From Rhodobacterales bacterium 32-66-9 (GTDB lineage Bacteria; Pseudomonadota; Alphaproteobacteria; Rhodobacterales; Rhodobacteraceae): a DNA stretch of 32,055 nt. A model generated the notes under the pieces. It saw only the letters and a list, made by a program, of their open reading frames with translations. It had not been told where the DNA came from and ran no database searches. The position numbers and the translations under genes are program-made. The stretch is from contig NCDY01000089.1 in assembly GCA_002280405.1 (NCBI GenBank), forward strand, positions 1 to 32,055. The letters run 5' to 3'. Positions 3,428 through 28,673 of the stretch are shown one piece after another. The stretch's first letter is position 1, and each line of letters begins with the position of its first letter.

Positions 3428-6131
<2,704 letters not shown>

Positions 6132-6142
<11 letters not shown>

Positions 6143-6440
6143 GCGGCGACTTGCAGCCCTGGCGGCTGCGGGCGAAACCATCACCTATGGCGAGCTTGCG
6201 CGCGAGCTTGGCCTTCGCATGGCCGAACTGACCGCCGGACTGGAAGCCCTGATGGAGCAGGACCTCCGCGCCGGGGCACCCCTGCGGGCCGTGCTGGTGC
6301 GGCAGCGTCTCTCACCGCACCAATCGCCGGCTCCGGGGTTCTTCCTCAAGGCCGCCGAACTCGGCCGCCCTGATGTCGACGTCGAGGCCGAACGCCGGGC
6401 CTTGTTCGCAAGCCCCCCACCCTTTACATCCGCGCCATGA
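6132..6440 (+). CDS. Conserved hypothetical protein, possible winged-helix fold
   Basis: This 102-aa protein of unknown function starts [20 protein letters not shown]. The ATG at 6132 lies inside the gyrA end (11-bp overlap) and its stop overlaps the trmFO start as ATGA, so it is translationally coupled on both sides. The N-terminal half (LERRLAAL...[28 protein letters not shown]) reads like a small helix-turn-helix/winged-helix module. ITYGELA resembles the DNA-binding helix region of alkyltransferase-like proteins, but there is no Cys active site. The C-terminal half has [26 protein letters not shown]. Codon use resembles its neighbours. It is a real gene by position and reading frame; the fold is an inference. 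Confidence 0.75.
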
Positions 6441-7638
6441 CCGAACCACTCCACATCATCGGCGGCGGCATGGCGGGGTCCGAGGCGGCCTGGGCCGCCG
6501 CCAACCTCGGTGTTCCGGTGGTCCTGCACGAGATGCGGCCCGGGGTCGGAACCTTCGCCCATCGAACGGGCGATTTCGCCGAAATGGTCTGTTCCAACTC
6601 CTTCCGTTCGGATGACCACGAACAGAACGCGGTCGGCCTGCTGCATTGGGAAATGCGCGCGGCGGGGGGACTGGTGATGCAGATGGCCGAGCAGCACCGC
6701 CTTCCGGCGGGTGGCGCGCTGGCCGTCGACCGCGAACCTTTCGCCCGCGCCGTCACCGGCAAGCTGAAGTCGCATCCGCTGATTTCAACGTCGCTTGAAG
6801 AAGTTACCCAGCTCCCCTCATCCGGCCATTGGATCATTGCGACCGGCCCGCTGACCAGTCCCGCGCTGGCAGAGAGCATTCGCCAGGCGACGGGTGCCGA
6901 GGCTCTGGCCTTCTTCGACGCCATCGCACCCATTGTATATACAGAGACCATCGACATGTCCGTCGCCTGGCTGCAAAGCCGCTACGCTATTTCGACGGCT
7001 GCCTGCCCATCGAAGTCATGGCCGAACGCGGTCGCGAAACCCTTCGCCACGGCCCGATGAAGCCCGTGGGCCTGACCAATGCGCACAAGCCGGATGAAAA
7101 GGCCTATGCCGTGGTGCAACTGCGCCGCGACAACAAGCTGGGCACCCTGCACAACATTGTCGGCTTCCAGACCAAGATGAAATACGGCGCGCAAACCGCT
7201 GTATTCAAGATGATTCCGGGGTTGGAGAACGCCAGTTTCGCTCGCCTTGGCGGCATCCACCGCAACACCTTCATCAACTCGCCCACGCTGCTTGACCAGC
7301 AGATGCGGCTGAAATCGCGCCCGCATATCCGCTTTGCCGGGCAGATCACCGGGGTCGAAGGCTATGTCGAATCCGCTGCGATGGGCCTCCTTGCGGGCCG
7401 CATGGCTGCGTCCCAGCTCCTCGGGCGCGACCTGTCCCCGCCGCCACCCGAAACCGCGATGGGCGCGCTGGTGACCCACATCACCGGCGGGGCCGAAGCG
7501 AAGACCTTCCAGCCGATGAACGTCAACTTCGGCCTCTTTCCCCCCATCGACGCCAAGGGCGGCCGCCGGGGTCGGCATGACCGCTACAAGGCCTATACCG
7601 ACCGGGCCAAGACGGCCTTCACCGAATGGCTTTCGTAA
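6437..7638 (+). pseudogene. trmFO: trmFO with internal deletion and frameshift: methylenetetrahydrofolate-tRNA-(uracil-54-C5)-methyltransferase
   Basis: TrmFO makes ribothymidine-54 in tRNA using folate and FAD. The N-terminal frame (6437 to about 6986, 183 residues) has the FAD Rossmann motif [13 protein letters not shown] and reads correctly to AWLQSRY. The C-terminal frame resumes at about 6988 with [19 protein letters not shown], continues through GPMKPVGL and [14 protein letters not shown], and ends EWLS. In intact family members SRY is followed by roughly 40-45 residues (DKGD...NCPM...) before YFDGC; these are absent here and the frame changes (loss of 3n+1 bases). As it stands translation would end at 7060. 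The gene overlaps its upstream neighbour by 4 bp and gluQ by 13 bp. Family identity is certain; whether the lesion is biological or a sequence error is open. Confidence 0.9.
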
Positions 7639-8352
7639 CCCGCTTCGCCCCCAGCCCCACCGGTCCCCTGCACCTCGGCCATGCCTATTCCGCGATCCTC
7701 GCGCATGACATGGCGCGCGCTGCGGGCGGCCGGTTCCTGTTGCGGATGGAGGACACCGACCTCGAACGCTCGAAACCCGAATACGCCGCAGGGATCCAGG
7801 ACGACCTGAACTGGCTTGGTCTGGGCTGGGATGGCCCGATCCGGCGCCAGTCTGACCACATCGCCGCCTACAATTCCCGCCTCGAAGCGCTGGTTCCGCA
7901 GGACCTTGTCTATCCCTGCTCCTGCAGCCGATCCGACATCCGCTCGGCGCTTGCCGCCCCGCAAGAGGGCGTGGTCTTCCACGTCTATCCCGGCACCTGC
8001 CGCCATCGCAGCCGGGACAGCCGCCGTCCGGGCGACGCCCTGCGCCTGAATCTCGCCGCGGCACTTGCGAGGCTCCCAGCTTCCGACCTTGCCTTTCCTG
8101 AAACCGGCCCGGGGCATGCGGGGTTCCGGCGCATCGATCCGGTGGCCGCCCTGGCGCAGATCGGCGACGTTGTCCTGTCGCGCAAGGGCGAGGATGTCGT
8201 GGCCTATTTCCTCGCCGCCGTCCTGGACGATCCGCGACGATCAGGGCAAGCGCCTGGCCAAGCGCGACGATGCCCGGGCGCTGTCGAAATTCCGGGCCGA
8301 GGGCGCAACCCCTGCCGACATCCGCCGCATGGTCGGGTTACCGAAACCTTAA
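7626..8352 (+). pseudogene. gluQRS: gluQ with internal deletion and frameshift: glutamyl-Q tRNA(Asp) synthetase
   Basis: GluQRS attaches glutamate to the queuosine base at position 34 of tRNA-Asp. The N-terminal frame (7626 to about 8231) shows the class I signature APSPTGPLHLGHA, RMEDTDLERS, and the zinc-site cysteines of YPCSCSR and YPGTCRH. It reads well to DVVLSRKGEDVVAYFLAAVLDD. The family then continues with about 35-40 residues (a QGVT..RG.DL...LLQ..L..P segment) before the KMSKS-like part. Here that block is missing, and a second frame takes up at IRDDQGKRLAKRDDARAL (from about 8230) and ends at the TAA at 8350-8352. Left uncorrected, the first frame would run on to 8453 into unrelated sequence. 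The start overlaps the trmFO end by 13 bp. Confidence 0.88.
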
Positions 8353-8380
8353 CGCCCGCAGCCAAGCCCTTGATTTCGTT

Positions 8381-8758
8381 TCACCCGCAAGAGTGTCCAC
8401 GCGTGGTCGGGTGCAGGATCTCAACCTCCTCATTCCCTCGGACCGCCGTGTAGAAGCAGGACCGCCGATTGGTGTGGCAGGCCGGTCCCTCCTGTTCGAC
8501 CAACGCCAGCAGGCAATCCCGGTCGCAATCCAACCGCAGCTCGACCAGCCGCTGCTGGTGCCCGGAGATCGCTCCCTTGACCCAGAACTCCTCCCGCGAC
8601 CGCGACCAGTAGGTCAGCTTCCCGCTGGCCAGCGTCGCCGCGACCGCGGCCGCGTTCATCCAGGCCAGCATCAGAACCTCACCCGACCCTGCCTCCTGCG
8701 CCACGCAGGGGATCAACCCGCTTGCATCATACTTCAGTGTGGCCGGGTCGAAGGGCAT
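8381..8758 (-). CDS. hisI: Phosphoribosyl-AMP cyclohydrolase
   Basis: This 125-aa protein performs the third step of histidine synthesis, opening the adenine ring of PR-AMP to give ProFAR. Zinc and substrate motifs are intact: LMLAWMN, TYWSRSR, DCDRDCLL, and GPACHTNRRSCFYTA. It is the stand-alone HisI form without a fused HisE domain. The start is the ATG at 8756-8758 (MPFDPATLKYD); a longer in-frame reading to 8821 adds residues not seen in the family. It stands alone, away from other his genes, convergent with gluQ (28-bp gap) and divergent from the NifU-like gene. Confidence 0.95.
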   Translation of the reverse strand: MPFDPATLKYDASGLIPCVAQEAGSGEVLMLAWMNAAAVAATLASGKLTYWSRSREEFWVKGAISGHQQRLVELRLDCDRDCLLALVEQEGPACHTNRRSCFYTAVRGNEEVEILHPTTRGHSCG

Positions 8759-8842
8759 GGCTCTCTCCTTGGCAGTCAGGCCTGCCCGGACTACATACGA
8801 GGTCAGCCGGGGAAATTCCATGCGCGAAGGCGGTCAGTGCAC

Positions 8843-9286
8843 GTGAGCGACAGCGATCTCATCAAGCTCTACTCGGCCCGCATCCTTGGGCTGGCGGCTG
8901 ACATACCGCATCACGGGCGGCTCGCAGCCCCGCAAGGCACCGCACGCCGCCGCTCGCCGCTCTGCGGGTCAACCGTGACGGCGGATGTGATGGTCAAGGA
9001 CGGGCGCATCGCCGCATTCGCCCAGGACGTGAAGGCCTGCGCGCTCGGACAAGCCTCGGCGGCGGTGCTGGGGGCGGTGGTGATCGGTCGGACCCTGCCC
9101 GAACTTCACGCCGCCCGCGACGGCCTGCGCGCCATGCTGAAAGCGGATGGCCCGGTTCCCGCAGCGCCGTTCGAGGGCTACGAAGTCCTCCTGCCCGCGC
9201 GCGACTACACGAACCGCCATGCCTCGATCCTGCTTCCGCTCGAGGCGGTTTGTGAGGCGATGGAGGCGGCACTGGCCGCCGCCTGA
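8843..9286 (+). CDS. NifU/IscU N-terminal-like iron-sulfur scaffold homologue lacking one Cys ligand
   Basis: This 147-aa protein of the NifU N-terminal family starts at the GTG at 8843 (VSDSDLIKLYS), with AAGGCGG at 8827-8833. IscU-type scaffolds hold a nascent [2Fe-2S] cluster with three Cys and one Asp. Aligning by eye, Cys41 (PLCGS) matches the first Cys, but the following Asp is Ser43. Cys66 (VKACALGQ) matches the second. The third, in the usual HCS.L motif, is Ala127 in NRHASILL. A Cys137 lies ten residues later. So this is a family member with a modified cluster site; a role in Fe-S assembly is uncertain. It does not lie in a suf or isc cluster. Confidence 0.82.
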   Translation: MSDSDLIKLYSARILGLAADIPHHGRLAAPQGTARRRSPLCGSTVTADVMVKDGRIAAFAQDVKACALGQASAAVLGAVVIGRTLPELHAARDGLRAMLKADGPVPAAPFEGYEVLLPARDYTNRHASILLPLEAVCEAMEAALAAA

Positions 9287-9287
9287 C

Positions 9288-9325
9288 AAAAAAACCGCCG
9301 CACATCCCGCTTGGGATGGCGGCGG
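9288..9325 (-). terminator. Rho-independent terminator for the - strand recG block
   Basis: Read on the - strand, a strong hairpin (outer arms CCGCCGC/GCGGCGG, inner arms CATCCC/GGGATG, 4-nt loop, one bulged base) spans 9295-9325. It is followed directly by seven T residues (A-run at 9288-9294 on the + strand). It lies 83 bp past the stop of the 48-aa membrane gene, downstream of recG, and sits just after the stop of the convergent + strand scaffold gene. Confidence 0.85.
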
Positions 9326-9408
9326 CAGTGGCGCGTCTGGAACGGTGGACGGTGGGCCAGGCAAGGCGGACCGCCACTTTCGGGGGACAGAGCGCGGGGC
9401 AGACAACG

Positions 9409-9555
9409 TCAGGCGAGGCCGGGCAACGACAGCACGACAAACAGGATCACGAAAAGCGCGGACAGGCCGACCATATCTTCGGCCGCGCCCTCGGGTATCC
9501 GGGTGAACAGGGTCTTCATGGCGTCTGGCATCGCGTTCTCCATGGTGGTTGCCAT
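9409..9555 (-). CDS. Small single-pass membrane protein, unknown function
   Basis: This 48-aa protein begins MATTMENAMPDAMKTLFTRIPEGAAEDMVG and finishes with one hydrophobic helix (LSALFVILFVVLSLPGLA) ending at the C-terminus, so a tail-anchored topology is plausible. The start is the ATG at 9553-9555 with GAGAAC just upstream. A longer in-frame reading to 9630 would run into an AT-rich segment that looks like a leader. It lies 85 bp downstream of recG and is followed by a strong terminator, which supports its being a real transcribed gene. I do not recognise the family. Confidence 0.6.
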   Translation of the reverse strand: MATTMENAMPDAMKTLFTRIPEGAAEDMVGLSALFVILFVVLSLPGLA

Positions 9556-9640
9556 ATTGTTCTCATTTTTCGCACGGACTGTAAAGAACTTTTTAAGAAC
9601 ATCGGTGGAACGAACCACACCCATCGCCAATGGGTCCGAT

Positions 9641-13804
<4,164 letters not shown>

Positions 13805-13859
13805 GCCCGCCCCCCGACCTGCGAAAGCAAGGTAGGCGGCGGAACCATGAAGGTAAAGG

Positions 13860-14567
13860 TCAGGCGCTTGCGGCAAGCCTTGCCTGCCCGCCTGCCGGAT
13901 CGCGCAGCACATAGCCCCGACCCCAGACGGTTTCGATGTAGTTGTCGCCGCCCGTGGCTTCGGCGAGCTTCTTGCGCAGCTTGCAGATGAACACGTCGAT
14001 GATCTTCAGTTCCGGTTCATCCATGCCGCCATAGAGATGGTTCAGGAACATCTCCTTCGTCAGCGTGGTGCCCTTGCGCAGCGACAGAAGCTCCAGCATC
14101 TGGTATTCCTTGCCGGTCAGATGCACGGCCTTGCCTTCGACATCCACCGTCTTGGCATCGAGGTTGACAGAGATCCTGCCCGTCTTGATCACCGATTGGC
14201 TGTGGCCCTTGGACCGCCGGATGATGGCATGGATGCGCGCCACCAGCTCCTCCCGGTGGAAAGGCTTGGTCAGGTAGTCGTCCGCGCCGAAACCGAAGCC
14301 CTTGAGCTTGTTTTCGGTGTCGTCGGCACCCGACAGGATCAGGATCGGGGTTTCGATCCGGGCCTGCCGGACCTGACGCAAGACTTCATGCCCGCTCATG
14401 TCGGGCAGGTTCAGGTCAAGAAGGATCAGGTCGTAATCATACAACTTTGCCAGATCGATCCCGTCTTCGCCCATGTCGGTGCAATATACGTTCAGATTGG
14501 CGTGGGTCAGCATCAGTTCGATGCTGCGCGAGGTCGTGGGATCGTCCTCGACAAGCAGAATGCGCAT
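13860..14567 (-). CDS. ctrA: Cell-cycle response regulator CtrA
   Basis: This 235-aa OmpR/PhoB-type regulator is the alphaproteobacterial master regulator. In Rhodobacterales it typically controls motility and gene-transfer-agent genes; in Caulobacter it also controls replication. The receiver domain (1-117) has the acidic pocket EDD (7-9), phospho-acceptor Asp51 in LLDLNLPD and the Lys of LTKPF. The winged-helix domain (about 128-224) has the near-invariant [20 protein letters not shown] and RGYVLRDP. The length and sequence match CtrA closely. Upstream lie CtrA-type half-sites and a GANTC site, and sciP, encoding a CtrA inhibitor, is the next gene upstream on the same strand. Confidence 0.97.
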
Positions 14568-14653
14568 TGGTTAAATCTCCGCTCCGGTGGTTCATCGTTA
14601 ACGACCTTGCCGGTGAATGGTTAACGTCAGGTTACTATGCCAGAGGACGAATC
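14568..14653 (-). promoter_or_regulatory. ctrA upstream region with CtrA half-sites and a GANTC methylation site
   Basis: On the - strand, TTAACCAT (14617-14624) is an exact CtrA half-site. TTAACCAA (14567-14574) lies against the ctrA start. A third TTAA, inside GTTAAC, is at 14597-14602, 23 bp from the GTTAAC at 14620-14625, about two helical turns. GATTC at 14649-14653 is a CcrM methylation motif (GANTC). In Caulobacter CtrA controls its own gene and a GANTC times the promoter. Equivalent control here is inferred from the sites. Confidence 0.6.
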
Positions 14654-14662
14654 CCAATCCAC

Positions 14663-14941
14663 TTAAAGTTGTCTGTATTTCCTGATCGACGTGACTTTCA
14701 GGCCATCCTCGCCGTGTTTTGTGGCCGCCGCTCGCCACAGAGCAAACTCTTCCTCGGACAAGGCATAGCGTTCCAGCGCCTCTTTCTCGGAGATCAGGCC
14801 GTAAACCACGGCTTTCACCACCACCGCCTTGCGGCTGGCCACCCATCGGCGGGTGTCGCCGGCCGGAAGATCCGCCCGGGAAAGAATGCTGCCATCGGGC
14901 AGCGTGACCTGCCTTGGACCGTCGACACGTTTGAGAAACAT
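14663..14941 (-). CDS. sciP: CtrA inhibitor SciP (DUF1153 family)
   Basis: This 92-aa protein has the DUF1153/SciP core: VTLPDGSILSRADLP, TRRWVASRKAVVVKAVVYGLIS, and EEFALWRAAATKHGEDGLKVTSIRKYRQ. SciP binds DNA and CtrA and blocks CtrA-driven transcription after S phase in Caulobacter. The start is the ATG at 14939-14941 with GAGGGAACG eight bases away; an adjacent GTG at 14944 could add one residue. It lies 95 bp upstream of ctrA on the same strand, so regulator and inhibitor are neighbours and could share a transcript. It is divergent from mnmA. Confidence 0.92.
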   Translation of the reverse strand: MFLKRVDGPRQVTLPDGSILSRADLPAGDTRRWVASRKAVVVKAVVYGLISEKEALERYALSEEEFALWRAAATKHGEDGLKVTSIRKYRQL

Positions 14942-15006
14942 CACCGTTCCCTCGCTGATTTCGGGCAGGATGCCGGAACAGGCTTAATCAAAGCTGAAAC
15001 AGGGGA

Positions 15007-15034
15007 TTGAGAGTGCACAGCATTTTCCTATATT
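15007..15034 (+). promoter_or_regulatory. Candidate sigma-70 promoter of mnmA
   Basis: TTGAGA (15007-15012), a 16-bp spacer and TATATT (15029-15034) sit 34 bp upstream of the mnmA ATG in the sciP-mnmA divergent gap. Both hexamers match the housekeeping consensus well for a GC-rich genome. Confidence 0.5.
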
Positions 15035-15067
15035 CGCCATCATTCCCGTAACCCGGACAATCGACCC

Positions 15068-16204: not shown

Positions 16205-16207
16205 CCC

Positions 16208-17792: not shown

Positions 17793-18604
17793 GCCCTTGC
17801 CCAGAGAAACAGGTCCAGCGACCGGGCCAGCCGCAGCATTTCCGGCAGTTCCAGGCAGATGACCGATCCCGCCTGAAACGCCACCCCGCCCAGACCCGCC
17901 GCCGCCACGCCGCGCAGCGTTTCCGGTCCGATGGTCGGCAGGTCGATCCGCCGGTCCTGTCCGGGTTTTGCCGCCTTGTAGAAGACACCGCGCCCCCGGG
18001 CTGGATCGGGCCGCAGCGCGCCGATCCCGGCGACCTGGGCCAGAAGCGCGTCGGTTCCGGGCAGCGCCTCGACGCCCAGACAGAGGCCCTGGGCAACCAC
18101 CGCTCCCTGGCCCACATCAACCGCACCAAGGGTTGCGACGATCTCTGCCGCCCGGGCCGTATCCGCCGCGTCGCGGGTGCTTGGTGTCCCGACCAGAACC
18201 CCCGCGCCCGGCAGCAGGCCCGGCGCAATCGTATCGACCCCCGCAACGGTGAAACCGAATTCCTCGAAAATCTCGATCACCACCCGCAGCGTCGCATCAT
18301 CCCCCGCCGCCATCGCTGCCATCAGCCGGGGCAACAGCGCCGCCGTGGCTTCGTCCAGAAGCGCGGGGTCCAGCCGCGGCCGCGTCACCGCACCGGCAAA
18401 GATCACCCGGTCGATGCCATCACGCGCCAGCGCGCGCAGAAACGGCACCAGCCGCTCGACCCGGAACCGCAGGTCCGCGGTCAGGCCTTCGGGCGCATGC
18501 CCGTCCATCGCGGCGACCAGGGGCGCATCGGCCATCGCTGCGGCCAGCGCCGCCGGCAAGGCGCCGCTGCCGGCGATGATCGCGGTCCTCGGGCCGGACG
18601 TCAC
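17789..18604 (-). CDS. lpxI: UDP-2,3-diacylglucosamine pyrophosphatase LpxI (DUF1009)
   Basis: This 271-aa hydrolase makes lipid X. LpxI is the alphaproteobacterial replacement for LpxH. It starts at the GTG at 18602-18604 (VTSGPRTAIIAGSGALP), whose last two bases begin the lpxA stop TGA, and ends by overlapping lpxB. Conserved blocks are FAGAVTRPRLDP, GDDATLR, VGQGAVVAQGLCLGVEALPGTDALL and KPGQDRRIDLPTIGP. It lies between lpxA and lpxB as in many alphaproteobacteria. A longer open frame upstream of 18604 is only a shadow of lpxA. Confidence 0.94.
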   Translation of the reverse strand: MTSGPRTAIIAGSGALPAALAAAMADAPLVAAMDGHAPEGLTADLRFRVERLVPFLRALARDGIDRVIFAGAVTRPRLDPALLDEATAALLPRLMAAMAAGDDATLRVVIEIFEEFGFTVAGVDTIAPGLLPGAGVLVGTPSTRDAADTARAAEIVATLGAVDVGQGAVVAQGLCLGVEALPGTDALLAQVAGIGALRPDPARGRGVFYKAAKPGQDRRIDLPTIGPETLRGVAAAGLGGVAFQAGSVICLELPEMLRLARSLDLFLWARA

Positions 18605-19407
18605 CGGCCGCCCTTCGGGGTCAGGAAACTGCGGTCGGATTTCGACAGGATGAAATCCGCGATCTCGCGCACCAGGGGCGAGTCGCTCTCCTCTGCCAGC
18701 TTGCGCGCCCGGTCGACAAAGCTGCCGTCTTCCTGCGCCAGCGTCTGGTAGGCCGCCCTGAGAGCGGTGATCCCCGTCCGGTCGACGCCCCTGCGCTTGA
18801 GGCCCACTAGGTTCAACCCGTCCAGTTCGCCGCGAGGAGCCTGCACCAGGCCGTACGGGATCACGTCGTTGGTCACCATCGTCACCGCGCCGATGATCGC
18901 GCCCTGCCCGATCCGAACCCATTGATGCACGCCTGACAGACCGCCCACGATCACGTCATCGCCCAACACGCAATGCCCGGCTATGGCCACATGATTCACC
19001 AGAATGACCCGGTCGCCGATCTGGGCATCGTGGCCAACATGCGCGCCGGTCATGATCAGGCAGTCATCTCCGACCCGCGTCACCCCACCGCCGCCATCCG
19101 TGCCGGTGTTCAGCGTCGCCGCCTCGCGTATGCGGCAGCGCCTGCCGACGATCAGCCGTGTGTGCTCGCCATGATATTTCAGATCCTGCGGCACCTCGCC
19201 GACGCTGGCGAAGGGGAAGATCACCGTCTCCTCACCGATTTCGGTCCAGCCGGTCACCACTGTATGCGACTTCAGCACCACGTTCGGCCCAAGCACGACC
19301 TCGGGCCCGACGCTGCAGAACGGGCCGATCACGCAGCCCTCGCCGATCACGGCACCCGGCTCGACCAGTGCCGAGCGGTGGATGCGGGCTGTGGGATGGA
19401 TGCTCAT
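18601..19407 (-). CDS. lpxA: UDP-N-acetylglucosamine acyltransferase LpxA
   Basis: This 268-aa left-handed beta-helix enzyme performs the first step of lipid A synthesis, adding a 3-hydroxyacyl chain to UDP-GlcNAc. Hexapeptide repeats run through most of the protein. The catalytic His is His126 in GAHVGHDAQIGD, and GLSGVHQWVRIG and GLNLVGLKRRG are typical. The start is the ATG at 19405-19407 (MSIHPTARIH); a GTG at 19416, abutting the fabZ stop, would add three residues and cannot be excluded. It follows fabZ directly. Confidence 0.95.
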   Translation of the reverse strand: MSIHPTARIHRSALVEPGAVIGEGCVIGPFCSVGPEVVLGPNVVLKSHTVVTGWTEIGEETVIFPFASVGEVPQDLKYHGEHTRLIVGRRCRIREAATLNTGTDGGGGVTRVGDDCLIMTGAHVGHDAQIGDRVILVNHVAIAGHCVLGDDVIVGGLSGVHQWVRIGQGAIIGAVTMVTNDVIPYGLVQAPRGELDGLNLVGLKRRGVDRTGITALRAAYQTLAQEDGSFVDRARKLAEESDSPLVREIADFILSKSDRSFLTPKGGR

Positions 19408-19416
19408 GCCCGTCAC

Positions 19417-19824
19417 TTACGGTCTGGCGACGTCGAACATCGCCATGAACGTCGCTTCGCAGGCCAGGTCACCCTCCACCATGGCGCGGCCCTCGAACTT
19501 CCAGACCCGGCCGCCGCCGCGCAGCGCCCTGTCGACCCCCATGAAGAAGACCTTGGCGTTCTTGTCGACCAGATCCATCGACAACCCGACAAGGACGCCC
19601 GAGGTTTGCGCCATTGCCTCGATGATCATCACGCCGGGAAAGATCGGCATGCCGGGGAAATGGCCCTGGAACTGCGGTTCGTTCAGCGTGATGCATTTGA
19701 TGCCGACGCAAGAGTCGTTCACGACAATGTCGCGCACCTTGTCGATCAGGAGAAATGGATAGCGGTGCGGGATGATCCGCTGAATCAGGTCCAGATCGGC
19801 ATGTGTCACGGCAGTCGCATCCAT
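19417..19824 (-). CDS. fabZ: 3-hydroxyacyl-ACP dehydratase FabZ with an in-frame internal gap
   Basis: This 135-aa hot-dog-fold dehydratase of fatty acid elongation has catalytic His55 ([12 protein letters not shown]) and Glu69 (MIIEAMAQ). After FFMGVDRA (to residue 100) the sequence passes straight to [12 protein letters not shown]. Family members have about 18 more residues here, including the almost invariant RRPVVPGD strand-turn. The loss is in frame (about 54 bp), so the ORF stays open, but a core strand of the hot-dog sheet would be missing. The family length is usually 140-155. The start is the ATG at 19824 with AAGGG seven bases upstream. Either a shortened protein or a sequence error. 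Confidence 0.9.
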
Positions 19825-19923
19825 TCCTTTACCCTTTCCCCGGCCGCACGGCCCCGCAGTTTACCGGTCTAGCTAGCAAGTCGCACGGGGGGGCACAAGT
19901 TTGTCACCGCCCGTGTCGACCGA

Positions 19924-20487
19924 TCAGGGCTGCGCCGCCGACGGTTCGGCCAGGGCGGCATTGACCCGGGCGATGGCATCGTCGGTGATGTCGATGGCTG
20001 ACAGGGATAGGATGACCAACCCCTTGTCCAGGATCGCCATCGCCCCCCGGTCGCCAAGGATTTCGCCCAGGACAGGCACCGCAACCTTGAGAAAATCCTT
20101 GCGGTCCTTGTCGCGGCCTTCGGTCAGGCTGCGGGCCTTGGCATCCTGCTCGTTCCGGATCCGCACGACCTTGGCATCGAAGGCAGCGGCACGAGCCGTG
20201 AACTCATCGGCGGCAAGCGTCGCGCGCGCCTTGGTCAGGGCCTGTTCCTCGGCCACCAGCTCGGCCTCGATCCGGCGGTTTTCCTGTTCCAGCGCCGCCG
20301 TCGCAACCCTTTCGCGTTCGACGGCGGCCCGGCCGAAGTCAGATTCCAGGAAAAGCCGGTCCTGATCCAGCGTCAACAGCGGCGCGGGTGTCTCTTGCGC
20401 CAGCCCCGGTGCGGCCAGCACCATAAAACCCGCCACGATCCAGGACCGCACCCCGGGGCGACTGTATCCGCGCCGCCCTGTCATCAT
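19924..20487 (-). CDS. ompH: OmpH/Skp-family periplasmic chaperone
   Basis: This 187-aa protein has an N-terminal signal sequence (SWIVAGFMVLAAPGLAQ) and then LLTLDQDRLFLESDFGRAAVERE, followed by a long charged helical region (about 50-140) that would form the Skp tentacles. Skp holds unfolded outer-membrane proteins for BamA. The start at 20487 shares one base with the bamA stop (a second ATG follows at once), so the two are coupled. It occupies the position between bamA and fabZ where many Gram-negatives have lpxD after skp; no lpxD remnant is visible in the 99-bp gap to fabZ. Confidence 0.88.
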   Translation of the reverse strand: MMTGRRGYSRPGVRSWIVAGFMVLAAPGLAQETPAPLLTLDQDRLFLESDFGRAAVERERVATAALEQENRRIEAELVAEEQALTKARATLAADEFTARAAAFDAKVVRIRNEQDAKARSLTEGRDKDRKDFLKVAVPVLGEILGDRGAMAILDKGLVILSLSAIDITDDAIARVNAALAEPSAAQP

Positions 20488-22832
20488 CAGAACTTCGTCG
20501 AGATCGTCAGGTCGAAGTTCTGCTCCTTGTCGAAGTCTTCCTTCTGGATCGCCCGACTGAAGTTGAACCGCAGCGGACCGATGGGCGTGGTCCAGAACAC
20601 CGACAGGCTCACCGAGGCGCGCGGGGTGAAGCTGTCATCGACGGTAGAGCCGCCGAAACCCGCCGTGTTGTCCAGACTCCAGACCGAGCCGACGTCCAGG
20701 AACGCCCCGCCCGTGATGCCGTATTCCTCGGGCAGGCCCAGCGGGAAATCGGCCTCGAACCGCGCCACCGCGAAGAGGTTGCCGCCAAGCGCGTCGACAT
20801 TGGTCGCGCCCAGATCGCGCGGACCGATCCCGTTCGGCTCGAAGCCGCGGATCTTGCCGTTGCCGAAGAAACGGTCGGTCACCCGGGTCACGTTGCCGCC
20901 AAGCGAGGTGATCGCGCCACCTTCGAAGATCGCCCGCAGGGTGACTTCCTCGTTGAAGACTTTCGTCTCGGCCAGGGCAAGTGCCGTGGTCTTGATGTAT
21001 TCGTTGTCGCCACCCAGCCCGGCAAAATCCTGGCCAAAGCGCAGCAGGACGCCGCCCTTCGGGTTCAGGCCGGTGATCCGGTTGTCGAATTCGTAGGTGT
21101 AGCCCAGCGAGAAGGTGGTCAGCGTCCCCCGGGCCGCCTCGGCGATGAGGATCGGCGAGTTCCCGGTGTAATTGTACAGCCTGTCTTCCGCCAAACTGAT
21201 CCGCAGATCGAGGTTCGACTGTTCCCCCACCGGAAAGCCGAGCCCGGTTGAAAAACCGATGTTGCGCGTATCATAGACCGAGAAATCCGATTGAGAGGTC
21301 CGGTAGAAGCCGCCGATCGTGAAGCTGAGGTCGCGGCCCAGAAGTGCGGGTTCGGTGAAGCTGAAGTTGGAATTCTGGTTGGCCGAAGCGGTCGAGATCG
21401 CCAGCGACAGCTTTTGCCCCCGACCCAGGAAGTTGGTCTCGGAAAAACCGATGTTGAAACCGGTGCCGTTCGAGACTGAATAGCTGAGACCGAAACTCAG
21501 GCTGCCGGTGGGCTGCTCCTCGACACCGACCTTGACCACAACCTGATCCGCGGCCGATCCCTGATCGGTGTTGACCTGCGCATCGGCAAAGAAGCCGAGC
21601 GCCCGGATGCGTTCCGCGGCCTGCCGGATCTCGCGCGGGTTGAAGGGGTCGCCTTCCACCGTGCGAAACTGACGGCGGATGACCTGGTCCAGCGTCGTTG
21701 TGTTGCCCTCGATGTCGATGCGTTCGACGAAAATCCGCTCGCCCCTGACAATCGCGAATTCGATATCGACCGCTTGGCCGCGGTCGTTGCGGGTGATGCG
21801 CGGCTCGACCCGGATGAAGTTCAGGCCCTTCTTCAGCGCCAGCGTTTCCATCCGGGTGATGTTGTTGTCGATCAGCAGGGGCGTGTAGGTCTGCCCGGTG
21901 CGGATCTTCTGCACCGCCGCGAAGTCTGCGGCGTCCAGGCCCGCGACCTCGGACACCGTGGTCACGTTGCCGATCGAATAGGGCAGGCCTTCGCGCACCG
22001 TGAAGGTCACGAAGGTCGCATCGCGCTCGCGGCTGACCTCGGCACTGGCATCCAGAACCTGAAAGTCGATGTAACCGCGCGACAGGTAGAAGTCGGTCAG
22101 GACCTTGCGGTCAAGCTGCAGCCGTTCCGCGACATAGGTATCGCGCTGGATCAGGTTGCGCAGCAGGCCCGCCTGCTTGGTCTCCAGCACCTGACGCAGT
22201 CTGCGGTCAGAGAAGGCCCTGTTGCCGACGAAGGACAGACGCTCGATCTCGACCACGCGGCCTTCGGTGATCTCGAACACCAGGTCCACCCGGTTGTCGC
22301 TGCGGCGGATGATCTTGGGCGTGACCTGGGCGGCAAGACGACCGGCGACACGATAGGCCTCTGCGATGGCTGCGGCGTCCGATTCGGCAAGGGCGGGCGA
22401 GTAGACCCGGCGCGGTTGCGACTTGATCAGCCCGGTCAGCTTCTCGTCCTTCAGCCGCTTGTTGCCTTCGATGCTGATGACGTTCACGATCGGGTATTCC
22501 TGCACCCGGATCAGCAGCGTCGATCCCTGCGGCACAAGCTCCACTTTCTCGAACAGGTTCGAGTTCAGGATGCGCTGGTAGGCGTCGTTCAGCGCGGCGG
22601 CAGACACCTCGTCGCCGCGCTTGATTCCGGCATAGCTCAGGATCGTCGCGGCATCGACCCGTTCGTTGCCTTCGATGGTCACGTTCGAAAAGGAAAAGAC
22701 CTGCGCGAAAGCCGGTTGCAGGAACGGCTGCGAAGCCGTTGCGGCGCCGATGAAAACCGCTGTTACCAGCAGACGAGCCCTGGACTTTGCCCGGGCAGAC
22801 CGCCCCTTGGCCACGCTGTGGGTCATCCGCAT
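20487..22832 (-). CDS. bamA: Outer membrane protein assembly factor BamA
   Basis: This 781-aa Omp85 protein inserts beta-barrel proteins into the outer membrane. A signal peptide ends near residue 43 (PAFAQ). POTRA repeats follow from FSFSNVTIEGNERV to about 430, with the recurring I.GN pattern (IEGNKRLKD, FVGNRAFSD, IEGNTTTLDQ). Then comes a C-terminal 16-strand barrel with the lid-loop motif IRGFEPNGIGPRD and a terminal Phe (TISTKF). The start is the ATG at 22832 with GAGG seven bases away. It has a likely promoter upstream and no gaps against the family. Confidence 0.96.
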   Translation of the reverse strand: MRMTHSVAKGRSARAKSRARLLVTAVFIGAATASQPFLQPAFAQVFSFSNVTIEGNERVDAATILSYAGIKRGDEVSAAALNDAYQRILNSNLFEKVELVPQGSTLLIRVQEYPIVNVISIEGNKRLKDEKLTGLIKSQPRRVYSPALAESDAAAIAEAYRVAGRLAAQVTPKIIRRSDNRVDLVFEITEGRVVEIERLSFVGNRAFSDRRLRQVLETKQAGLLRNLIQRDTYVAERLQLDRKVLTDFYLSRGYIDFQVLDASAEVSRERDATFVTFTVREGLPYSIGNVTTVSEVAGLDAADFAAVQKIRTGQTYTPLLIDNNITRMETLALKKGLNFIRVEPRITRNDRGQAVDIEFAIVRGERIFVERIDIEGNTTTLDQVIRRQFRTVEGDPFNPREIRQAAERIRALGFFADAQVNTDQGSAADQVVVKVGVEEQPTGSLSFGLSYSVSNGTGFNIGFSETNFLGRGQKLSLAISTASANQNSNFSFTEPALLGRDLSFTIGGFYRTSQSDFSVYDTRNIGFSTGLGFPVGEQSNLDLRISLAEDRLYNYTGNSPILIAEAARGTLTTFSLGYTYEFDNRITGLNPKGGVLLRFGQDFAGLGGDNEYIKTTALALAETKVFNEEVTLRAIFEGGAITSLGGNVTRVTDRFFGNGKIRGFEPNGIGPRDLGATNVDALGGNLFAVARFEADFPLGLPEEYGITGGAFLDVGSVWSLDNTAGFGGSTVDDSFTPRASVSLSVFWTTPIGPLRFNFSRAIQKEDFDKEQNFDLTISTKF

Positions 22833-22865
22833 ATTCCATCCTCGCCGAATTTCTTGTTTCCGGAT

Positions 22866-22917
22866 TGACTAGCGGGAAAGCAAAGCTTTGTCAAAAGCCT
22901 GCGGTCATTGTGGATAA
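22866..22917 (-). promoter_or_regulatory. bamA promoter candidate with adjacent perfect DnaA box and palindrome
   Basis: On the - strand a perfect TTGACA (22889-22894) is followed after 17 bp by TAGTCA (22866-22871), a weak -10. The spacer contains the perfect 10-bp palindrome CAAAGCTTTG (22881-22890), which overlaps the -35 by two bases. Fifteen bases upstream of the -35 lies TTATCCACA (22909-22917), an exact DnaA box. The promoter lies 34 bp upstream of the bamA start, in a 161-bp gap inside an otherwise tight cluster. Confidence 0.5.
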
Positions 22918-22993
22918 CTTTGCAAGATGTTGTGGTGCCAAGGCTGTAACCGCAGGTTGCAGCGAACCCGGTCCGGTCAAGCCGGACCTTGGT

Positions 22994-24322
22994 TCACTGG
23001 CAAAGCAGATCGCGGCTCAGTCCGAAGATCATGATCGACAGGACCACCGTCAGCCCGAATGTCATCAGGATGCGCAGCGCCCACTCCGCAGGCTGGCGGC
23101 GGGTGATCGCCTCATAGGCGTGGAACACCAGATGCCCGCCATCAAGCACCGGAATCGGGAGCAGATTCAGGATGCCGATCCCCAGCGACAGGATCGCGAT
23201 CATCCCGACAAAGCTTTGGGCACCATTGCGTGCCGCATCGCCCGCCGTTTCCGCCATGCCGATCGCACCCGACAGATTGCAGCTCGAGATCGCGCCCCGG
23301 ATCATGTGCCACAGGCCCGAGAATGTCGTCGTGGTCATCCGCCACATGGTCTGCGCCGCCCCTGTCGCCGCTTCCCAGGGACCGACGCTGCGAACCGCGG
23401 GCTCGAAGAACATCCCGGAGTAAAGGCCCAGCAGGTAGCGTTCGGTGAAGCCGCCGTTGCCGTCGTCCACCGTCCGGATGCGCGGCGTGATGGAAAGATC
23501 GAAGGTCTTTCCCTCGCGCCACACGCTCAGCGCAACCGGCTGGCCCTTGCCGGCGGCCACGATGTCCGGCAATTCGTCGAAAAAGCGGACATCCTTGCCG
23601 CCTGCCTGCAGGATGACGTCGCCCTCCTGCAACCCCGCGTCCATCGCCGCCGAGCGGATCTGCACCTCGCCCACCACCGGTGCCTGCGGGTGGGGGCCCG
23701 TCACCGTGATCTCGCTGCCCCGACGCAGCACGCGGTAGCTGAGCGTGGACTTGCCCTTCAGCGCATCCGTGACCAGTCCGAAGGTCTCCCAGTCGGGGGT
23801 CGCCTGATTTTCGACCGCCAGGATCACGTCGCCCTCGGCCAGAGTCGCGCCCGCCACCGGAAAGGGGCGCATCTTGCCGACCGCCGGTTCTTCACGGGGC
23901 ACGCCCGTCACCAGCGCAAGGCCCGACAGAAGCACGAAGGTCAGGATGAAATTGAACACCGGCCCCGCCGCGACCGTGGCCGAGCGTGCCCACAAGGGGG
24001 CACCCGCCATCGTGTGCCGCCGCTCTGCCACAGACAGTCCAGAAACATCGCCTTGCCGCACGGATGAGGCATCGGCATCGCCAAGGAACTTCACATATCC
24101 GCCAAACGGGATCGCCGCCACCTGCCAGCGGGTGCCGCGCCTGTCGGTGCGGCTGAACAGAACCGGCCCGAATCCGATGGAGAACACCTCGGAATGGATG
24201 CCGGACCAGCGCCCGACGATGTAATGGCCGTATTCGTGGACAAAGACGATCACCGACAGCGCGACGATGAAGAACGCCAAGGTCCATGCCGTGCCGCCAA
24301 GTGCCGCCGCAATCGCGTCCAT
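22994..24322 (-). CDS. rseP: Site-2 zinc metalloprotease RseP (MmpA)
   Basis: This 442-aa intramembrane protease has the HEYGH zinc motif at 29-33 in the first transmembrane helix and the partner NLLPIPVLDGGHL around residue 390. Two PDZ-like regions lie between (about 125-290), and FGGYVKFLGD follows the first helix. The family cleaves anti-sigma factors and signal-peptide remnants; the Caulobacter homologue MmpA cleaves the polarity factor PodJ. It abuts dxr with no intergenic space, and the stop is followed by the 161-bp gap before bamA. Confidence 0.95.
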   Translation of the reverse strand: MDAIAAALGGTAWTLAFFIVALSVIVFVHEYGHYIVGRWSGIHSEVFSIGFGPVLFSRTDRRGTRWQVAAIPFGGYVKFLGDADASSVRQGDVSGLSVAERRHTMAGAPLWARSATVAAGPVFNFILTFVLLSGLALVTGVPREEPAVGKMRPFPVAGATLAEGDVILAVENQATPDWETFGLVTDALKGKSTLSYRVLRRGSEITVTGPHPQAPVVGEVQIRSAAMDAGLQEGDVILQAGGKDVRFFDELPDIVAAGKGQPVALSVWREGKTFDLSITPRIRTVDDGNGGFTERYLLGLYSGMFFEPAVRSVGPWEAATGAAQTMWRMTTTTFSGLWHMIRGAISSCNLSGAIGMAETAGDAARNGAQSFVGMIAILSLGIGILNLLPIPVLDGGHLVFHAYEAITRRQPAEWALRILMTFGLTVVLSIMIFGLSRDLLCQ

Positions 24323-25507
24323 CTACCGCTCTCCCGCTCTGGCACGCGCGATCTCGCCTGCCCTCATCCGTGCCAGATGGTCCATTCCCTGGACATCCTC
24401 AAGGGTCATGATTGCGGAATTGGTGCCGAAATCGCGGTTCAGACCCTCAAGCACCGTTTCGACCACGGCCGACATGTCCATGAACCCGATCTCTCCGGCC
24501 AGAAAGTGGTCCAGCGCCACTTCCTTGGCCGCAGTGAAGGCGGCGCCCGCAAGTCCCCGCCGCGCCATCACCTCGCGCGCCAGCCGCAACGCCGGATAGC
24601 GTTGCAGATCGGGGGCCCGGAAGCTCAGCGTTGCGATCTGCGCCAGGTCCAGCCGCGCCACCGGCAACTCGGCCCGTTCGGGCCAGTTCAGCGCATAGCC
24701 GATGGAATGGCGCATGTCGGGAGCGCCCAGATGCGCCATGATCGCCCCGTCGCGGAAGCCGACCATGGAATGGATCAGGCTTTCGGGATGGACGATGACT
24801 TCGATCTGGTCCGGCGCGACGCCAAAGAATTCGCGCGTTTCGATGACTTCCAGGGCCTTGTTGAACATCGACGCGCTGTCGATGGTGATCCTTTGCCCCA
24901 TGGCCCAGTTCGGATGCGCCAGCGCCTCTGCCACCGTGGCCTTGGCCAATGCTTCCAGCGGCCAGTCACGCAAGGCCCCGCCGGATGCCGTCAGGATGAT
25001 CCGCTCGACCGCTGCGATGTCCTCGCCCACCAATGCCTGGAAGATCGCCGAATGTTCGCTGTCCACCGGCAGGATGCGCGCGCCGTGCCGAGCGGCTTCG
25101 GCCATCAGCAGCGGTCCGGCGGTGACCAGCGATTCCTTGTTGGCCAGCGCCAGTGTCGCCCCGTGCCGCAACGCCCGAAAGCCCGGCACCAGCCCTGCGG
25201 CGCCGACGATCGCGCTCATCACCCAGTCCGCCGGCCGGTCCGCCGCCTCGGCTATCGCGTCCGGGCCGGCCGCAGCCTCGATGCCCGATCCCGCCAGCCG
25301 CGCCCTCAGTTCGGCCAGGTCCGACGGCTCGGCACAGACCGCGATCTCAGCCCGCAACGCGCGCGCCATGTCGGCCAGCCGGGCCAGGTTTCGCCCCCCG
25401 GTGAGCGCCACCACCCCGAAGGCCTCGGCCCCCCCGGCGCGCAGCAGAAGCTCGACGGTCTGTTCGCCGATCGACCCGGTGGCACCAAAGAGGGACACGC
25501 TGCGCAC
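24323..25507 (-). CDS. dxr: 1-deoxy-D-xylulose 5-phosphate reductoisomerase
   Basis: This 394-aa enzyme makes MEP, the committed step of isoprenoid synthesis. The NADPH site is FGATGSIG (7-14). Substrate and metal residues appear in ALANKESLV, PVDSEHSAIFQ, TASGGALRDW, HPNWAMGQRITIDSASMFNKALEVIE and HPESLIHSMVGF. The start is chosen as the GTG at 25505-25507 (VRSVSLFGATG), two codons from the family-typical start. A GTG three codons downstream is better placed relative to the GAGG overlapping the cdsA stop, so the exact start is uncertain. Confidence 0.95.
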   Translation of the reverse strand: MRSVSLFGATGSIGEQTVELLLRAGGAEAFGVVALTGGRNLARLADMARALRAEIAVCAEPSDLAELRARLAGSGIEAAAGPDAIAEAADRPADWVMSAIVGAAGLVPGFRALRHGATLALANKESLVTAGPLLMAEAARHGARILPVDSEHSAIFQALVGEDIAAVERIILTASGGALRDWPLEALAKATVAEALAHPNWAMGQRITIDSASMFNKALEVIETREFFGVAPDQIEVIVHPESLIHSMVGFRDGAIMAHLGAPDMRHSIGYALNWPERAELPVARLDLAQIATLSFRAPDLQRYPALRLAREVMARRGLAGAAFTAAKEVALDHFLAGEIGFMDMSAVVETVLEGLNRDFGTNSAIMTLEDVQGMDHLARMRAGEIARARAGER

Positions 25508-25511
25508 CGCC

Positions 25512-26321
25512 TCAGCCCCCGAACAGCCCGGTGATCGGCACGAAGAGACCAAGGCTCAGCACGAAGACCAAGGCTCCAATCAGCGCATCGAACCGGTCAA
25601 GCACCCCCCCATGCCCCGGGATCAGGGACGAGGCATCCTTCACGCCGCAGCGCCGCTTGACCCAGCTTTCCGCAATGTCGCCGAACTGCCCCGCACAGGC
25701 CACCAGCGCCGAAAGCGGCACCAAAAGCCAGCCAGCGTCGGCCCATTGCACGAAGACAAGCCCGACCAGCGCCGCACCGATCCAGCCCGCGACCGTGCCC
25801 GACCAGGTCTTCTTCGGGCTGATCCTTGGCAGGAACTTCGGCCCGCCCAGCATGCGCCCGGCGAAATAGCCCAGCACGTCCGAGGTCACCACCACCGCGA
25901 CCAGCCACAGGATCGCCGTGCTTCCCCCCGCCAGCCGCAGGTGGACCAGGCCGTAGCCCGCCAACATGATCGCCAGCGCATAGGCACCTGCCAGTCGCCG
26001 ATCGCGGCGCGGCGTCAGGATCAGGACCAGGGTCGGAACCATCAGGAACAGGGCGGCGATCTCGCTGCGCAGGATCAGCGCCAGCAGCAAAGCGCCCCCC
26101 GCCAGACCGCCCACGGTCACCGGCGTGCGCCGCCGTGCCGGCGCCGTCATCGCCGCAAGCTCCCAGACCATGACGCCGGTCAGCGCCACAACGAGAGCTG
26201 CAAAAGCCGTGCCGCCCAGCCAGATTTCGGCCGCTCCGACCGAGACCATCACGGCGGCCGACAGGATGCGGGTGCGCAGGTCCGCCCATTTGCCGCCAGG
26301 CGCAAAGCCCGGCTCGGTCAT
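25512..26321 (-). CDS. cdsA: Phosphatidate cytidylyltransferase
   Basis: This 269-aa polytopic inner-membrane enzyme forms CDP-diacylglycerol from phosphatidate and CTP. Multiple hydrophobic segments are followed by DVLGYFAGRMLGGPKFLPRISPKKTWSG and the CDS signature KRRCGVKDASSLIPGHGGVLDRFD near the C-terminus. The start is the ATG at 26319-26321 (MTEPGFAPGG), overlapping the uppS stop as ATGA; a longer in-frame reading to 26405 would lie inside uppS. It is part of the pyrH-to-lpxB cluster. Confidence 0.95.
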   Translation of the reverse strand: MTEPGFAPGGKWADLRTRILSAAVMVSVGAAEIWLGGTAFAALVVALTGVMVWELAAMTAPARRRTPVTVGGLAGGALLLALILRSEIAALFLMVPTLVLILTPRRDRRLAGAYALAIMLAGYGLVHLRLAGGSTAILWLVAVVVTSDVLGYFAGRMLGGPKFLPRISPKKTWSGTVAGWIGAALVGLVFVQWADAGWLLVPLSALVACAGQFGDIAESWVKRRCGVKDASSLIPGHGGVLDRFDALIGALVFVLSLGLFVPITGLFGG

Positions 26322-27052
26322 CGAAGAACCCCGCCGAACCGCCGTTGCCGGTTGGAAAACCGTTGCACGATGGCCGCAAGCTCGTCGGGTCCGAAATCCG
26401 GCCACAGCGTTTCGGTGAATTCATATTCGGCATAAGCCGCCTGCCAGGGCAGGAAGTTTGAGGTCCGCGTCTCGCCGCTGGTGCGGATCACCAGGTCGGG
26501 GTCGGGCAGCCCGCCGGTGTCCAGCCGTTCCGAAAACGCCGCTTCGGTCAGGTGCCTGGGATCCAGTATCCCCGCCGCCGCCGCTTCGGCGACCCTCTTC
26601 ACCGCGCGCAGGATTTCGTCGCGCCCGCCATAATTCACTGCGACCGACAGGTTCAGCCGGTCAAGACCGGCAGTCCGTGCCTCGATCCCGGCCATCAGGC
26701 GTTGCAGTTTCGGGTCCAGCCGACTGCGGTCGCCGATGAAACGCATCCGCACGCCCGCCTTTGCCAGCCGGTCCGCCTCGCGCTCGATATAGCGCGCAAA
26801 GATCGCCATCAGACCAAGGACTTCCTCGGTCGACCGTTTCCAGTTTTCGGTCGAAAACGCATAGAGCGTCAGCCACTTGATCCCCAGATCCGGGGCCGCG
26901 CGCACGATTTCGCGCACCCGCTCCGCCCCCTTGCGATGGCCCACCAGCCGCGCCCAGCCCCGGTTCGTGGCCCAGCGGCCATTGCCATCCATGATGATCG
27001 CCAGGTGGTTTACCGGCCGGATCATGGCCTCCACCTGCAGGTCCTTCGACAA
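26318..27052 (-). CDS. uppS: Undecaprenyl diphosphate synthase
   Basis: This 244-aa cis-prenyltransferase makes the C55 lipid carrier for peptidoglycan and O-antigen. The catalytic Asp22 lies in IIMDGNGRWA, with AFSTENWKR and RTSGETRTSNFLPWQ (pyrophosphate binding) intact. The TTG at 27052 has GGAGGA eight bases upstream. The first ATG is ten codons in (27023-27025), with GGAGG only two bases away, so the TTG is preferred; the ATG form would be 235 aa. It overlaps cdsA by 4 bp and starts 21 bp after frr. Confidence 0.94.
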   Translation of the reverse strand: MSKDLQVEAMIRPVNHLAIIMDGNGRWATNRGWARLVGHRKGAERVREIVRAAPDLGIKWLTLYAFSTENWKRSTEEVLGLMAIFARYIEREADRLAKAGVRMRFIGDRSRLDPKLQRLMAGIEARTAGLDRLNLSVAVNYGGRDEILRAVKRVAEAAAAGILDPRHLTEAAFSERLDTGGLPDPDLVIRTSGETRTSNFLPWQAAYAEYEFTETLWPDFGPDELAAIVQRFSNRQRRFGGVLR

Positions 27053-27073
27053 CCGCCGTTCCTCCGCCGCAGG

Positions 27074-27640
27074 TCAGACCTGCATGATTTCCGCCTGCTT
27101 GGCCTCCAGCGCCCGGTCGACGGCGGCGATGGCCTTGTCGGTCAGGTCCTGCACCACGTCGGACCAGAATTTCTGGTCATCCTCGCCCATGCCGTGCGCC
27201 TTCGCCTTCTTGATCTGGTCCATGCCATCGCGTCGCACGTTGCGAATCGCAACCTTGGCGCTTTCGGCATACTGCGCGGCAACTTTGGTCAATTCGCGGC
27301 GGCGCTCCTCGTTCAGCTCGGGAATCGGCAGCCGGATCAGCGGGCCATCGGTCACCGGGTTGATCCCGATGCCGCTTTCCCGGATCGCCTTCTCGACCTT
27401 CGAGATCATGCCCTTGTCCCAGACATTGATGACGACCATCCGCGGCTCGGGCACGTTTACCGTTCCCAGCTGGTTGACGGGGGTCATCTGGCCATAGGCG
27501 TCCACCATGATCGGCGCGACGATCGAAGCACTTGCGCGGCCCGTCCGAAGCGAGGCGAACTCTGTCTTGAGCGCGGCCATCGCCCCGTCCATCCGGCGCT
27601 GGATTGCATCGGTGTCGATCTCGATCTCGTCATTTGCCAT
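27074..27640 (-). CDS. frr: Ribosome recycling factor
   Basis: This 188-aa factor splits post-termination ribosomes with EF-G. The family core is intact: [72 protein letters not shown] and [18 protein letters not shown]. Normal length. The ATG at 27638-27640 follows a 238-bp gap after pyrH that holds an inverted repeat, a tandem repeat and a possible extended -10, so frr may have its own promoter. Confidence 0.97.
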
Positions 27641-27689
27641 GCGCCTGGTCCTTCACGTCCATTGCGAGCATTCCCTCGCGATTTCGCGC

Positions 27690-27698
27690 TCTATAGCA
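27690..27698 (-). promoter_or_regulatory. Possible extended -10 element for frr
   Basis: On the - strand TGC-TATAGA reads as an extended -10 (TGn-TATAAT type), 50 bp upstream of the frr start. It sits inside a short inverted repeat (CGCTCT / AGAGCG, 5-nt loop). No good -35 is visible. Confidence 0.35.
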
Positions 27699-27735
27699 GA
27701 GCGTCAGCGGCCCGGTATAGGCCAAAGCGCCCGGC

Positions 27736-27775
27736 CCGGCGGTCACCCGCGCTGCACCTTTTGGTTGACCGCCGG
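27736..27775. repeat. 10-bp perfect inverted repeat in the pyrH-frr gap
   Basis: CCGGCGGTCA (27736-27745) and TGACCGCCGG (27766-27775) form perfect arms around a 20-nt loop. It could be an attenuating hairpin or partial terminator after pyrH (no T-run follows on the - strand), or an operator for frr. Confidence 0.55.
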
Positions 27776-27803
27776 AGACGACCCGCGCGCGTCACGTCGC
27801 CAT

Positions 27804-27836
27804 CCATACGCCGTCCATACGCCGTCCATACGCCAC
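27804..27836. repeat. Three tandem 11-bp repeats
   Basis: The unit CCATACGCCGT is repeated head to tail at 27804, 27815 and 27826; the third copy ends AC instead of GT. The 11-bp period is close to one helical turn, so the copies lie on the same DNA face. They are non-coding, 43 bp past the pyrH end. Confidence 0.75.
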
Positions 27837-27878
27837 TGAACACGGTCCCGCGCACAATGACACAACGCCCGCCGAGGC

Positions 27879-28591
27879 TTAGCCCTGAACCCTGGTATAG
27901 GTCCCCTGCCCTGCCAGAATCCCCCGGAACCCGCCGGGCTCATCCAGCGAGAAGACGATGATCGGCAGCGCGTTGTCGCGGGCCAGGGCAATCGCGGTCG
28001 CATCCATCACTTTTCCAGCACCTCGTCGTAGGTCACATGGTCGTAGCGCCTTGCATCGCCATGTTTCTTCGGGTCCTTGTCGTAGACGCCGTCGACCTTG
28101 GTGCCCTTGAAGATCGCCTGACAGGCCATTTCGCTGGCCCGGAGCGTTGCCGCGGTGTCGGTGGTGAAATAGGGGTTTCCCGTCCCTGCCGCGAAGATGC
28201 AGACCCGCTTCTTTTCCAGGTGCCGCACGGCACGACGACGGATGTAGGGCTCACAGACCTGATCCATCGGAATCGCACTGATCACCCGCGTGAACACCCC
28301 GATCGCCTCCAAGGCCGACTGCATCGCCAGCGCGTTCATCACCGTGGCCAGCATCCCCATGTAATCCGCCGTCGTCCGCTCCATCCCCTGCGCGCTGCCC
28401 TGCAGCCCGCGGAAGATGTTGCCGCCGCCGATCACCATGCAGATCTCGACCCCGAGGTCGCGCACCGACTTCACCTCCTCGGCGATCCGCGCGACCGTTG
28501 GCGGGTGCAGGCCATAGCCCTGATCGCCCATCAGCGCCTCGCCCGAGATCTTCAGCATCACCCGGCTGTATTTGGTGGCCGTTGCGGACAT
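27879..28591 (-). pseudogene. pyrH: pyrH with a 10-bp deletion: UMP kinase split by a premature stop
   Basis: UMP kinase (amino-acid kinase fold, hexameric) makes UDP. The first frame starts at the ATG at 28589-28591 ([20 protein letters not shown]), has [10 protein letters not shown] and TDTAATLRA, and stops after 194 residues at YDEVLEK (TGA at 28007-28009). The remaining 42 residues (MDATAIALARDN...GTYTRVQG, stop 27879-27881) follow in another frame. Homologues have EK-x-L-x-VMD here; loss of 10 bp accounts for the change. The break has the form TGATG, so termination-reinitiation at the ATG, or a -1 slip on the AAG codon, could in principle join or co-produce the parts. Family identity is certain. 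Confidence 0.9.
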
Positions 28592-28673
28592 GGCACCCCC
28601 TGCATATCGTTTTGTGTTTGGACTGGGCCGCAAAATGTCGCAAAAGCGCAAAAGGTTCAACCGGGGATCGCCC

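Follow-up and report, generated by a model that had tools for sequence, protein, structure and literature searches.

Unmarked block losses in conserved genes of a draft Rhodobacterales genome very probably stem from its joining or assembly

The window, by which we mean the whole stretch of 32,055 nucleotides that was analysed, is one contig (C61) of a draft genome of Rhodobacterales bacterium 32-66-9 that amounts to 2.9 Mb in 177 contigs and is 81.5% complete. The nearest named match of its RecG is that of Tabrizicola thermarum (90%), among other Rhodobacterales, and the window is close to Tabrizicola. The best relative matches the window's ligA region at 79%. Over most of its length the window has a gene order in common with eight relatives of the same genus, and the multiple alignment of the window with these eight genomes was used to size the losses described here. 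Five conserved genes of the window each lack one internal block that every one of the relatives keeps (Table 1), at the places where a sequence-only reading had located clean internal losses. The reading frame is shifted by the losses in trmFO, gluQ, ligA and pyrH and is left unshifted in fabZ, and the number of frame changes, four, is the one that had been read from the sequence. Sizing against the close relatives, which had been proposed as a check, upheld the earlier estimates for trmFO, fabZ and pyrH (130, 54 and 10 bases) and corrected the other two, as the gluQ block measures 122 bases and not about 110, and the ligA block 35 and not 36. In the drawn-out junction alignments one relative is without the left flank of gluQ, and ligA is shown with seven relatives. 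There is no run of N anywhere in the window.

Table 1. Genes of the window with an internal loss; coordinates are those of the window, and the last column gives the relatives in which the missing block is present.
Gene	Coordinates	Strand	Bases missing	Position of loss	Relatives with block
trmFO	6437..7638	+	130	between 6985 and 6986	8/8
gluQ (GluQRS)	7626..8352	+	122	8230/8231	8/8
ligA	11722..13756 (upstream limit approximate)	-	35	13525/13526	8/8
fabZ	19417..19824	-	54, in frame	19526/19527	8/8
pyrH	27883..28570 (limits approximate)	-	10	28009/28010	8/8

The breaks are also visible in the matches of the products to NCBIfam profiles. The TrmFO profile is matched over positions 3-184 and then 222-435, in two frames, and the LigA profile over 2-79 and 89-664, split over two open reading frames. 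The match of gluQ in its first frame ends at position 199 of 274, that of fabZ ends at 89 of 137, and that of pyrH in its first frame reaches 188 of 233. The neighbouring genes gyrA, recG, bamA, rseP and dxr are whole, as had been claimed of them; they are open and align in a single frame over 903, 693, 781, 442 and 394 residues, respectively.

Smaller differences occur elsewhere in the window. The other gaps common to at least seven of the eight relatives are of one base after 2964, 9545 and 12104 and of four bases after 11964. The first two of these lie outside the listed genes; at 9545, close to where a small reading frame of the minus strand (9409-9630) begins, all eight relatives have one base more than the window. 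The gaps after 11964 and 12104 fall within ligA, whose 614-residue reading frame is open throughout. The stretch 11936-12145 of that gene holds several small alignment gaps with the 614-residue frame still open, and by the look of it these represent ordinary divergence. Small insertions are seen as well, for example at 19413, 24324, 30668 and 30685. Further small calls, mostly at gene ends or from queries in the wrong reading frame, were set aside (1815, 2971, 14588, 16195, 19406-19420, 19853-19877, 25508-25553, 27068-27086, 27674, 28632-28684 and 30690).

The same genes were surveyed in 95 sequences, made up of the window itself, 80 named loci in the recG neighbourhood and 14 stretches taken from relatives; a gene covered to less than 75% was classed as partial and left unjudged. 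Because some of the sequences are probably the same genome twice (some named loci probably duplicate the relatives, e.g. L060 and G015), the counts are upper bounds on independent cases. In this survey trmFO was whole in 64 sequences, cut by a contig end in one and broken in one, gluQ was whole in 65 and broken in one, and ligA was whole in 80, cut in six and broken in one, the broken copy being that of the window each time. Present in 48 sequences (one of them cut), fabZ showed an internal in-frame loss of at least 24 bases only in the window. For pyrH, which was reached in nine sequences, a break at residues 538-542 was likewise found only in the window. None of the five breaks is present in any other judged sequence of the 95, relatives included. 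Set aside from these counts were frame breaks with the recG query in four loci, breaks with the pyrH query in five loci other than the window, and, in 17 sequences including the window, breaks of the frame that lies near 18601; all fall in the over-long start regions of query reading frames derived from one relative (G001).

We then read 60 stretches from 60 other contigs of the same assembly (822 kb), of which 95.6 kb could be compared with the genes of relatives. The calling rule asked for a frame-changing loss of at least 8 bases with both sides at least 65% identical. It recovered the four frame-changing losses of the window, together with six places in the 95.6 kb of other contigs. At position 3475 of the stretch L143, from contig C99, dnaB, the gene of the replicative helicase, is 170 bases short with clean flanks in comparison with five of five relatives. 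On contig C90, 98 bases are missing against two of two relatives, as measured by the frame offset, and on C79 (stretch L280) a homoserine dehydrogenase gene lacks 148 bases against the one relative available. By total length the difference is 153 bases on C79 and, depending on the relative, 98 or 106 on C90, as compared to aligned gaps of 148 and 98. Near 13135 of L280 some twenty bases to the right of the loss match the single relative poorly, and these may be sequence of poor quality from the end of one of the joined pieces. The loss on C70 amounts to 23 bases against two of two relatives in the DNA alignment, the value that we adopted, the caller having given 29. All four of these losses change the frame. 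The two remaining places, of 19 and 20 bases, were each called from one relative. The DNA alignment shows no loss at the former (L148 at 8195), which was rejected, and the latter (L143 at 6101) was set aside along with L143 at 5936, as no relative was aligned there in the DNA alignment. Weaker calls (L142 at 4999; L143 at 2712, 10528 and 14710; L205 at 4130) were also set aside.

As a control, the same rule was applied to 499 kb of six relatives (G001, G004, G007, G008, G011 and G015). It returned only five calls, of 8, 10, 11, 19 and 20 bases, each backed by a single relative, and there was no loss of 21 bases or more in these 499 kb. Losses of more than 20 bases, or losses backed by at least two relatives, are thus peculiar to the source genome among the seven genomes tested. 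Their density is higher in the window than elsewhere in the assembly (five in 31.8 kb versus four in 95.6 kb, P 0.048). We do not read the window as a special region on this account, since its breaks were the reason for choosing it and the comparison there drew on more relatives.

The assembly also contains gaps that are marked. The 61 stretches (854 kb) contain five runs of N, irregular in length (38, 71, 11, 36 and 25 bases). Only two of the five could be sized, as the surroundings of those in L143 and L206 are variable and that in L274 is without a relative among the loci compared. The run of 71 (L196 16506-16576, contig C40) replaces 112 bases as an aligned gap in six of six genomes, or 109 by total length difference, and the run of 36 (L209 2915-2950, contig C157) replaces 58 bases in five of six genomes. 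The two are too short by about 41 and 22 bases, respectively. From the shortfall against the sequence of the relatives it follows that the assembly joined pieces over gaps and wrote at least two of these gaps too short. The unmarked losses resemble the gaps with N runs, except for the missing Ns.

The sequence-only reading had allowed that intact second copies might lie elsewhere in the genome, in which case the copies in the window would be free to decay. At 81.5% completeness the genome does leave room for unassembled copies. Against this stand searches at the DNA level that took in the whole assembly and the regions around all five genes: the queries were the trmFO-gluQ and ligA regions of the window and the trmFO-to-ligA and fabZ-to-pyrH regions of G001. 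A missing block of only 10 to 54 bases would by itself escape such a search. The searches gave only the window contig and short weak matches, and no second copy of any of the five genes was found. The breaks, moreover, occur in no other judged sequence, and the genes look constrained. We regard intact second copies as exceedingly improbable.

The other biological possibility that had been raised is a lineage that is truly losing genes, such that the deletions are real in the cells. In its favour, the junctions are as clean as those of a true deletion, and the source genome is the only one of those examined that shows the losses. Yet such a lineage would have to break ligA, pyrH, fabZ and dnaB together, and no second copy of ligA, pyrH or fabZ was found. 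These four genes are normally indispensable. Nor do the broken genes carry the marks of decay. On either side of the breaks most differences from the relatives concern the third base of the codon, as they do in the intact neighbours; in pyrH, which was scored over its N-terminal part, the differences from G001 are, for instance, 1.6%, 1.6% and 29.6% at codon positions 1, 2 and 3. Relaxed constraint was not found by codon positions in the broken genes, a result that is weak in itself, since constraint would not yet look relaxed after a recent loss. Eight of the nine losses change the frame, where two thirds would be expected by chance (P 0.14), and there is thus no sign of selection for tolerable losses and no in-frame bias. 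The normal constraint, the lack of in-frame bias and the need for ligA, pyrH, fabZ and dnaB together make a living, decaying lineage very unlikely. The particular form of it, in which a free-living alphaproteobacterium truly lost blocks of ligA, fabZ, pyrH and dnaB over a brief period and is sustained by external supply or by substitutes that were not assembled, we hold to be extremely unlikely.

Taken together, these sequence comparisons indicate that the breaks are very probably an artefact of joining or assembly, given that the losses are confined to the source genome, that losses of the same kind occur on other contigs and that the sized N runs are too short. The sequence-only reading had favoured a fault of assembly or consensus by which segments are dropped, and the like losses on four other contigs, the control with no loss of 21 bases or more and the short N runs support it. 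It had also suggested strain variants or local structure as what might set off the fault, and here the blocks themselves give no encouragement. Neither the G+C nor the conservation of the missing blocks falls outside the 8th to 92nd percentile of the region. In folding predictions with RNA parameters, made for four of the eight relatives, the fractions of random segments less stable than the block regions were 0.11, 0.23, 0.22, 0.05 and 0.76. Local structure or composition as the trigger was rejected, the blocks being neither extreme in G+C or conservation nor strongly folded by prediction.

The junction sequences point in the same direction. The microhomology at the five window junctions is 1, 3, 1, 2 and 1 bases (for each, the commonest value among the eight relatives); by chance a mean of 0.75 is expected in this region. 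Every one of the five shares at least one base, for which the chance is about 0.47 each, and this amounts to a weak excess, as computed for the window junctions. The shared bases are far below the length of a read overlap or a repeat, and microhomology this slight argues against two routes, deletion between repeats and a join made through overlapping reads. With only 1 to 3 bases shared at the five window junctions, deletion between direct repeats was rejected.

A zero-length scaffold join in particular is the form of artefact towards which we lean, with some reserve, on the strength of the sequence comparisons. Neighbouring pieces of the draft would have been joined over short stretches that had never been assembled, and the distance between the joined pieces would have been written too small or as zero. 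A join of zero length would then drop 10 to 130 bases at each join in the window, without leaving any N. We infer that one and the same joining step gave rise to the N runs and to the unmarked losses, in preference to an origin of the latter in gap closing, in the removal of Ns or in some other local assembly fault. The unmarked joins would need distance estimates that are short by up to 170 bases, whereas the two sized N runs are short by about 41 and 22, and one step may therefore not explain both. This larger underestimate speaks for an artefact of some step other than scaffolding, be it collapse of co-occurring strains, local misassembly, or amplification chimeras in the consensus. Local assembly errors in metagenome assemblies are indeed described in PMC7111523, in the portion of that article available to us. 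Conversely, the 1 to 3 bases shared at the junctions are ill suited to overlap-based collapse, and the ordinary conservation, G+C and predicted folding of the missing blocks do not favour such a step. We consider a non-scaffolding artefact rather unlikely, though a serious candidate, and continue to prefer the zero-length join.

Two published accounts, each drawn on here in part, offer parallels. According to the part of PMC7111523 available to us, uncurated local assembly errors and scaffold gaps lead to incomplete or incorrect gene sequences in public databases. The metagenome-assembled genomes treated there are like the present case in that joins and local errors of a draft spoil protein-coding sequences in databases. 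They differ in that the same part of the article deals with gaps filled by Ns, with consensus that no reads support, with repeats, and with Ns placed despite overlap, and joins that silently drop bases are not described in it. The consulted part of PMC11017572 attributes many putative bacterial pseudogenes to assembly errors, and the likeness lies in gene frames that are broken by assembly and not by decay. That work concerns, in the same part, frameshifts and internal stops in RefSeq assemblies and in reassemblies of E. coli, set against platform, assembler and coverage. The source genome, by comparison, lacks entire blocks, of 10 to 170 bases each.

No biologically unusual feature is indicated, and the cause appears to be an ordinary technical one. 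The importance of the finding is for data quality only. The draft may carry about a hundred silent losses; the figure would be 122 if the four in 95.6 kb held for the 2.9 Mb, a rough extrapolation from a small sample whose rate was taken outside the window. Such defects can be detected by comparing frame breaks and the lengths of N runs against relatives. Silent losses of this kind could be mistaken for pseudogenes or for the loss of essential genes.
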